Assembly (NCBI RefSeq): GCF_004765795.1
Contig: NZ_SBIV01000002.1
Coordinates: 372,001 to 436,000 of the forward strand
Reading direction: 5' to 3'
Length of the DNA: 64,000 bases
Source of the DNA: Halorussus marinus
Lineage (GTDB): Archaea > Halobacteriota > Halobacteria > Halobacteriales > Haladaptataceae
This document shows positions 30,974 to 32,985 of the stretch, piece by piece. Under the pieces are notes generated by a model, which saw nothing but the letters and a program-made list of their open reading frames with translations, made no database searches and had not been told where the DNA came from. Position 1 is the stretch's first letter. Each line of letters opens with the position of its first letter. The position numbers were made by a program, and so were the translations under genes.

Positions 30974-30996
30974 GGGTGGTGTCAAGCGCGCTTGTC

Positions 30997-31030
30997 GTAA
31001 AGCTCGCTTTACAGTAAAGTCTCTTTTACA
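30997..31030 (-). promoter_or_regulatory. Cluster of GTAAAG/CTTTAC half-sites over the DUF2178-XRE promoter
   Basis: On the plus strand GTAAAGC (30997-31003) and GCTTTAC (31006-31012) form a perfect 7-bp inverted repeat with a 2-nt centre. The next GTAAAG (31014-31019) pairs with the same CTTTAC across 1 nt, and a relaxed CTTTTAC follows (31023-31029). The first palindrome covers the expected TATA position, 28 nt upstream of 30973. This is the layout of a cooperative autorepressor operator. Confidence 0.6.
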
Positions 31031-31121
31031 CTCGACAATAAATCTAGGGGTGATCGAGCGATCCGAGAGCAGAAAACCGCGATCGGCCGTCGACGAAAGG
31101 GAGCTCGAAGAGCCGGCCGGC

Positions 31122-32804
31122 TCAGTCGTCGGCGCTCGCCGCGCCGGGCGAGACGTGGCCGTCGGGGACGGTGCCGTCGTCGTTCCAGCCCCGGACCGCG
31201 TAGTACTCGTCGAGGGCGTCCTCGAAGCCCGGCAGGTCGTAGGGCAGTCGGTCGGCCTCGCGGTCGATCCCCCGCTTGTTGTTGAAGTGGCGTTCGAGTT
31301 CGACGATCCGATCGCCGACCGCGAGCAGGTCCTCGAAGTCCGCGCCGAACAGCGACTCGTAGCGCTCGGGGCTCATGAAGTCCCGCGAGAACTTACAGAC
31401 CACGCCGGCGTCGTTGAGCGCCATCAGGTTCTCGCGTTTCACGAGGCGCTCGGGCTTGCCCTCCAGACCTCTCGGCGCCATGCCCTCCTCTTTGGGCACG
31501 AGGGGGTACTCGACCGAGTAGAAGGTCGCGTACATGTGATCGCCGCCGCGGTTGGCGACCGCGTACGAGAGCCCCTGCCCGTGGAGGACTCGGCCCTCGT
31601 GGGCCGCAAAGTCCATGCCCTTCACGGTCCAGTTGCCGACCCCGAGGTCGTCGTGGATCCGGTCGATCCCCTCCGCGAGCGTGTCGCCGACGCCCTCGCG
31701 GTTGGCGATCTTCTCGACGAGGTCGAGGATGAGCTCCTCGTCGCCGAACTCGTCCTCGCTCGCGAGGTACGCCGAGACGGTGTTGCCCGTCGAGATGGTG
31801 TCGAGACCGTAGCGGTCACAGAGCTCGTTGGACTTCATCACGTCGACGATGTCGTCGATGCCGGCGTTCGACCCGAACGCCATCGCCGTCTCGAACTCCG
31901 GGCCCTCGGTCTCGACGCCGGCCGCCTCGTCTCTGGTCGGGAGTTTGCACGCGAACGCGCACGCCGAGCAGGTCCCTTTCTTGTACTTTTTCTGCTCGAC
32001 CGCGTCGCCGTTGATCCCCTCGGCGCCCTCGAACGACTGCTCGGAGAAGTAGTAGGAGGGCAGGCCGTCGATCTCGTTGGCGAGGTCCATCACCGAGACC
32101 GTGCCCTGTCGTTTCATGATGTGGTCTTCGGTCGCGGCCTCGCGGTGGATCTCCATCTGGGTCGCCGGGATCTCGATCTCGGGGGCGGCGTCGCCCTCGA
32201 ACGTGATCGCCTTGACGCCTTTCGCGCCGAGCACCGCGCCGAGTCCGCCCCGACCGAACGCCCGCTCTTCGGTCGTCATGATGGAGGCGAACCGGACCTC
32301 GTTCTCGCCCGCCGGCCCGATGCAGGCGACGTGTTCGCTGCTGAGTCCGTGGGTCTCCTCGATGTACTCGCAGGTCTCGGGGACCGTGGCGCCCGCCAGA
32401 TCGGCCACCGGTTCGAACTCGACGCCCTCGTCGGTGACGTGGATCGCGAGCGTCTCGTCGCTCTCGCCGACGATCTCGACCGCGCTGTAGCCGGTGTCGG
32501 CGAAGTTCCGCGACATGAACCCGCCGGCGTTCGACGACAGCAGGCCGTCGGTGAGCGGCGACAGCCCGGTGGCGTTCATCCGGCCCGTGAAGCTCATCGT
32601 CGACATCTGCATGGGGCCGGTGGTAAAGACCAGCCGGTTGTCGGGGCCGAGCGGGTCGGCGTCGAACGGGATCCGATCGTGGCCGAGTTTGGTCCCGACG
32701 CCCCGACCGCCGATGAACGATTCGAGCACGTCGTCGATGTCCTCCGTGCGGGTTTCGCGCTCGCCCAGATCGACCGTGAGCAGCGGGCCCTTGCTGTGTA
32801 TCAT
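31122..32804 (-). CDS. Aldehyde:ferredoxin oxidoreductase family protein (tungsto/molybdopterin)
   Basis: This 560-residue AOR-family enzyme has the N-terminal LTVDLGERETRTEDID, the GGRGVGTKLG segment and the pterin-binding NLANEIDGLP-type region. The 4Fe-4S ligands are C-x2-C-x3-C in CSACAFACK (about residue 276) plus a late cysteine in DAGVVCKFSRD. It should oxidise an aldehyde or related substrate to the acid and pass electrons to ferredoxin, using a bis-pterin tungsten or molybdenum site. The start MIHSKGPLLTVDLG at 32804 matches family starts. It is monocistronic; the 180-nt spacer upstream shows nothing else coding. Confidence 0.93.
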   Translation of the reverse strand: MIHSKGPLLTVDLGERETRTEDIDDVLESFIGGRGVGTKLGHDRIPFDADPLGPDNRLVFTTGPMQMSTMSFTGRMNATGLSPLTDGLLSSNAGGFMSRNFADTGYSAVEIVGESDETLAIHVTDEGVEFEPVADLAGATVPETCEYIEETHGLSSEHVACIGPAGENEVRFASIMTTEERAFGRGGLGAVLGAKGVKAITFEGDAAPEIEIPATQMEIHREAATEDHIMKRQGTVSVMDLANEIDGLPSYYFSEQSFEGAEGINGDAVEQKKYKKGTCSACAFACKLPTRDEAAGVETEGPEFETAMAFGSNAGIDDIVDVMKSNELCDRYGLDTISTGNTVSAYLASEDEFGDEELILDLVEKIANREGVGDTLAEGIDRIHDDLGVGNWTVKGMDFAAHEGRVLHGQGLSYAVANRGGDHMYATFYSVEYPLVPKEEGMAPRGLEGKPERLVKRENLMALNDAGVVCKFSRDFMSPERYESLFGADFEDLLAVGDRIVELERHFNNKRGIDREADRLPYDLPGFEDALDEYYAVRGWNDDGTVPDGHVSPGAASADD

Positions 32805-32985
32805 GGTCTCAGGTATCGTGTATCGCTTCGGAGGTGATAAAGATGGCCACACGCCAGACTCGGCGTCAGTTCGAGCGCCCTCGGCGAATCAGTTCGGTAG
32901 TCGGCGGCGAGCCGACGCCGGCGCGGGGACGCCGGGTCTGAAGTCGTCGTCGCCCGCGACCGGAGACCCGCGAGTCTGCGCCGCG

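Follow-up and report, generated by a model that had tools for sequence, protein, structure and literature searches.

The closest described counterpart of the locus treated here is the CylR1/CylR2 system of Enterococcus faecalis, which regulates cytolysin and likewise pairs a small XRE protein (CylR2, 66 amino acids), of the same sequence family as the archaeal regulator described below, with a small membrane protein. The CylR2 repressor binds the promoter in that system, as stated in the accessible text of the report (PMC3709268). CylR2 acts on a toxin operon through quorum sensing, and CylR1 is likened here to the archaeal partner proteins by pairing and not by sequence. Among the Archaea, MDR1 and LrpA, which we take to be repressors that block polymerase recruitment downstream of the TATA box, likewise have operators at and after the start with the TATA box left free, and belong to other protein families. 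The closest solved sequence to the regulator of this locus is PDB 9k3w (‘Transcriptional regulator, PbsX family’), for which organism, operator and paper were not found in the databases and literature searched. Neither a GTAAAG/CTTTAC operator nor DUF2178 was found described in the literature searched, most subscription papers lying outside that search.

The two-gene operon

The window, that is, the whole 64-kb stretch of DNA that was analysed, carries on its minus strand two genes that overlap by 4 nt at the stop of the first and the start of the second. The first, P0001 (30575 to 30973, minus strand), encodes a DUF2178-like membrane protein of 132 amino acids with four predicted helices and an invariant DER at residues 63 to 65, presumed to be a sensor or antirepressor, and the second, P0002 (30384 to 30578, minus strand), encodes a CylR2-like XRE/HTH_3 regulator of 64 amino acids. 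P0002 is assigned to HTH_3 in Pfam (E 3e-17), and its nearest solved sequences are PDB 9k3w (E 1.4e-17; profile 2e-30) and CylR2 (E 1e-12; profile 2e-23), the CylR2 chains matching residues 3 to 61 at E 1e-12 to 3e-11. It thus has the size (about 60 to 70 amino acids), the single HTH_3 domain and the CylR2 sequence match of a CylR2-like small XRE protein, and P0001 provides the small membrane-protein neighbour; a membrane-type ORF lies directly upstream of the XRE gene in nearly all close relatives. Immediately upstream of the operon, a large ORF (31122 to 32852, minus strand) resembles, by eye, an aldehyde ferredoxin oxidoreductase.

The DUF2178 label that the first-pass annotation gave to the membrane protein suits the family, 23 of 28 aligned partner proteins matching DUF2178 at E values up to 0.05 (best 1.7e-6), whereas P0001 alone matches PF09946 weakly (E 0.0098, 16.4 bits), under the Pfam gathering cut-off of 22.8. 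In two hand-picked sets, the partner proteins are 11 to 72% identical to P0001, with DER as the sole invariant part, and 20 regulators, bacterial ones included, are 52 to 80% identical to P0002. An AlphaFold2 model of P0001 shows four helices (mean pLDDT 85, pTM 0.62) with DER at the start of the third; a fold search with this model found no match at the cut-off of E 0.001, the best value being 1.9.

The tandem palindrome

Direct reading gives GTAAAG at 30997 to 31002, CTTTAC at 31007 to 31012, GTAAAG at 31014 to 31019 and a relaxed TTTTAC at 31024 to 31029, in agreement with the three exact half-sites and one relaxed half-site listed previously. They do form two inverted repeats, although these had been called overlapping and are in fact adjacent, with one base (31013) between them, and they end at 31029, not 31030. 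The result is two 16-bp palindromes of the form GTAAAG-N4-CTTTAC whose starts are 17 bp apart. The promoter-proximal palindrome, O1 (GTAAAAGAGACTTTAC; 31014 to 31029, minus strand), has one relaxed base and a position that is kept in 84 non-redundant aligned sites; O2 (GTAAAGCGAGCTTTAC; 30997 to 31012, minus strand) is perfect, and the 1-bp linker (31013, minus strand) is T in the sense of transcription. A weak third palindrome-like site (GACAAGcgcgCTTGAC; 30981 to 30996, minus strand), missed by the earlier reading, lies 16 bp from O2 and holds the half-site CTTGAC. At +43, 20 of the 84 aligned sites have a CTTKAC half-site (5 of 6 letters), where other offsets average 0.7.

One copy of the exact palindrome exists in the window, and 100 shuffles gave none. 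With up to one mismatch allowed, the 3.76-Mb genome (37 contigs) holds the single palindrome in two places, which are O1 and O2 themselves, 17 bp apart, and a reversed control also gives two places; the 17-bp tandem occurs once, against none for its reversed control. By count, the single palindrome is unremarkable genome-wide and the 17-bp tandem is remarkable.

Conservation and co-occurrence in haloarchaea

When 18 loci were read, own genome included, 14 had both palindromes at the 17-bp spacing upstream of the gene pair, three had a single site there (one of them with a tandem beyond the XRE gene as well), and the remaining locus, L022, had none. An independent collection contained tandem or single sites in Halobaculum, Halorussus, Haloarcula, Halorubrum, Halorientalis, Natrinema and others. 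The expectation that the motif would be kept upstream of orthologous pairs was thereby borne out in most haloarchaea examined and, as described below, in two bacterial classes, and the motif tracks the XRE gene.

Co-occurrence was assessed in 194 genomes of the class, a tandem operator being called at no more than 3 mismatches of 24 and an XRE protein at E up to 1e-15. The XRE protein is present in 107 genomes and the tandem operator in 80, with 0 of 194 for the reversed pattern; all 80 tandem-operator genomes carry the XRE gene, and none of the 87 XRE-less genomes carries a tandem (Fisher p 2e-31, phylogeny ignored). These genomes hold 99 tandem sites, 79 of which have an XRE gene 0 to 4 kb downstream on their own strand, 72 at less than 1.2 kb and seven at 1.2 to 4 kb. 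One tandem match, in genome G156 (2 mismatches), shows neither a TATA-like block in the stretch read nor a recognised target, and is probably due to chance.

XRE genes that lack a tandem numbered 68, of which 60 were fetched (40 and then 20) and eight were left out. Of the first 40, 28 had a single palindrome at no more than one mismatch (shuffle null 0.2%), five more had one at two mismatches (2% of shuffles), and seven showed no palindrome even at two. Among the further 20, only three had a GTAAAG site within the limit of one mismatch, and nine are a paralogue considered below. Perfect palindromes with arms of at least 7 were sought in 22 further loci, and nothing consistent was found.

Promoter architecture

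Matches with a T linker (105), taken with 80-nt flanks, were reduced to 84 sites that are more than 25% different. In this alignment, the conserved part comprises the operators and, at columns −22 to −7, a block upstream of them that reads roughly AnCGAYAGATTTAWGTA, as BRE and TATA would; conservation is near background beyond about −24 and +50. The corresponding elements in the window are a TATA-box-like TTTATTG (31036 to 31042, minus strand), 13 bp upstream of O1, where relatives have TTTAW at −13, and an adjoining BRE-like ACCCCTAGA (31043 to 31051, minus strand) with conserved columns −22, −20, −19, −16 and −15. TTTAW, with one mismatch allowed, stands at −13 in 59 of the 84 sites, the next best offset having 11 and distant offsets a mean of 0.9. 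The repeats had been described as centred on the TATA box; the conserved BRE/TATA, at about 31036 to 31051 (minus strand), instead lies 13 bp upstream of the palindromes. A TATA box inside the operator was considered and ruled out, as the distance to the first ATG varies and TTTAW keeps one fixed upstream offset: the first ATG is 17 to 94 nt from the linker in 79 of the 84 sites, and five have no ATG in the 80-nt flank. All 99 tandem sites have T as their linker in one orientation; in the 84-site alignment this T was imposed by construction.

By the usual TATA-to-start distance in archaea, transcription would begin at the boundary of linker and O2, because the centre of the TATA box lies about 27 bp from the first base of O2. 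The linker T would then be the last base before the start site, and the first G of O2 (31012) the predicted start itself. For Haloferax volcanii, the accessible text of one report gives 72% leaderless transcripts and names promoter motifs (PMC4983044), so that a leader of at least 17 nt, as predicted here, would be the less common case. The 17-bp spacing amounts to about 1.6 helical turns and would place two dimers on nearly opposite faces of the DNA, unlike classic same-face cooperativity.

A paralogue with a changed half-site

One paralogue subfamily (TRQTILYVEKGEYNPS, TRQT(I/V)LYVEKGEYNPS) has a changed recognition helix. The GTAAAG palindrome is absent from all nine paralogue loci searched and from L022, and GTTARR-N4-YYTAAC, which has the same 6-4-6 layout, occurs with at most one mismatch in eight of ten, a count made on the same sequences from which the pattern was derived. 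At these paralogous XRE/membrane pairs (L022 and L255 to L263), the GTTARR sites are 16 or 23 to 24 bp apart where two are seen. Of the sequence-level arguments that the XRE protein itself reads the site, the best is this change of the half-site together with the recognition helix.

Further candidate targets in relatives

Twenty of the 99 tandem operators have no XRE gene within 4 kb downstream on their strand, and 17 of them precede four recurring gene types: an ABC pair (7), a DUF3887 alpha/beta-hydrolase (4), a beta-lactamase-like protein (PF00144; 3) and an orphan DUF2178-like gene (3); the other three have no recognised target. Where the XRE-linked operator stands at long distance (seven cases), an ABC ATPase/permease pair lies between in four and a beta-lactamase-like gene in two. 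The ABC permease has no Pfam match and is named from its position after the ATPase gene. These arrangements look like a small regulon, beyond autoregulation, in several haloarchaeal relatives; the window's own genome has one tandem site, and the regulon is visible only in relatives. Because the target types are an ABC exporter, a DUF3887 hydrolase, a beta-lactamase-like protein and a DUF2178-like protein, a role in an envelope or antimicrobial response may be proposed.

Several individual arrangements can be added. In two Halobaculum loci (L035, L041), a single XRE gene comes after a pair of consecutive DUF2178-like genes, the arrangement lying within 0.9 kb downstream of the operator, as though one repressor answered to two sensors. 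At L169 and L172, a tandem operator is followed by an orphan DUF2178-like gene and then a peroxiredoxin gene, with no adjacent XRE gene. At L252 (genome G040) and L254 (genome G029), a well-formed tandem operator with BRE/TATA stands just after the XRE gene and its target is not recognised; the relatives L251 and L253 have the ABC pair at that place.

Bacterial counterparts

In Alphaproteobacteria and Actinomycetes, too, related XRE genes have the half-site code upstream, in the form GTMAAG-N4-CTTKAC. It was counted at 41 loci, comprising 30 (L179 and L188, duplicates of L065 and L077, being excluded) and 11 chosen by hand from these two classes as near full-length hits after the first scan. 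A site with at most one mismatch is present in 23 of the 30, eight of the 11 and 31 of the 41 in all (null 0.15%); among the 41, a perfect site lies near the XRE gene in 20 (null 0), a site with at most two mismatches in 37 (null 3.3%), and two such sites in 30. At weaker hits of the same two groups that lay outside the 41-locus count (L087, L089 to L094, L102, L104, L107 to L109 and L111), a scan for the GTAAAG form found nothing upstream. Genome-wide in eight bacterial genomes, the exact code occurs in two places each, side by side, in those of L064, L065 and L077, once in those of L049 and L075, twice on contig C13 in that of L096, and not at all in those of L067 and L083, with 0 to 3 in the control.

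Many bacterial sites are spaced at 26 to 29, 37 to 39 or 44 to 46 bp. The spacings of 17 bp (haloarchaea), 26 to 29 bp and 37 to 39 bp differ by about one helical turn, and 44 to 46 bp is a misfit; the series suggests that a rotational offset between operators may be kept across spacings. The upstream bacterial site usually ends in CTTGACA, and in Alphaproteobacteria the G is usually confined to that upstream half (GTAAAG/CTTGAC), the other halves keeping T. The upstream half-site could therefore double as a TTGACA −35 box; this overlap is read from TTGACA, part of which could be the operator's own flanking A, and a scan for −10 boxes gave weak matches (2 to 4 of 6).

Proposed mechanism and alternative explanations

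We consider it probable that the palindromes are operators of the operon's own 64-amino acid CylR2-like repressor, and that the two genes form an autoregulated membrane-sensor/repressor system. This proposal draws on the observed conservation and spacing of the sites, the promoter architecture, the co-occurrence, the downstream genes and the half-site change in the paralogue. A repressor dimer would occupy each 16-bp site, the half-sites of which are one helical turn apart. O1 and O2 would lie on either side of the predicted start site, immediately after a BRE/TATA that stays free, so that the bound repressor would block loading of RNA polymerase and not of TBP. The co-transcribed four-helix membrane protein would be the likely sensor that relieves repression. 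In several haloarchaeal relatives, the same tandem operator also stands before an ABC exporter pair, a DUF3887 alpha/beta-hydrolase lipoprotein, a serine beta-lactamase-like hydrolase or an extra DUF2178-like protein, which would be further members of the regulon.

The XRE protein might also bind these sites as an activator, or have a dual role that the membrane protein switches. Sequence does not reveal the direction of regulation, and induction in the CylR1/CylR2 system requires the membrane protein, by a mechanism that the accessible text calls not understood (PMC3709268). An activator or dual role seems unlikely, however, given the position of the sites, which in archaea coincide with the predicted start or follow it closely and in bacteria fall on a possible −35 box and further downstream, as is typical of repression. 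Binding by a different transcription factor, with the XRE gene merely linked, is less plausible still: small XRE proteins are common and their pairing with this operator is a prediction, but the motif tracks the XRE family over 194 archaeal genomes and two bacterial classes with different neighbours, and the paralogue with a changed recognition helix has a changed half-site. That the repeats act as hairpins in a leader RNA, and not as DNA operators, is very improbable; O2 would be part of the predicted leader, where it could fold into a 6-bp stem, but O1 falls outside the predicted transcript and the half-site letters are fixed and do not covary. The hairpin was rejected as a candidate on the asymmetry of the alphaproteobacterial upstream site as well, which would put a mismatch in the stem. 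Chance AT-rich repeats near a promoter would fit the genome-wide count of single palindromes but can be set aside, the conservation of the tandem at fixed positions (99 sites, none in the control) already refuting them.

Implications

A wider proposal can be made, which we hold tentatively and rate a little below an even chance: that this is a portable cassette common to Archaea and Bacteria. A near-invariant XRE protein and the GTMAAG-N4-CTTKAC operator would be kept, while the membrane sensor diverges (only DER is invariant in haloarchaea), and the operator would be fitted to the core promoter of each domain, straddling the start behind BRE/TATA in one and lying on a TTGACA −35 box in the other. 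The haloarchaeal form would govern an envelope or antimicrobial-response regulon of an ABC exporter and of beta-lactamase-like and DUF3887 hydrolases.

An undescribed and widespread pair of regulator and membrane protein thus gains a precise candidate operator, a predicted promoter geometry, a list of targets and a paralogue with a switched half-site, all four of which are predictions directly testable in haloarchaea. The pair would also be unusual in that both repressor and operator code appear to have been kept across the divide between Archaea and Bacteria, where the core promoters are wholly different.
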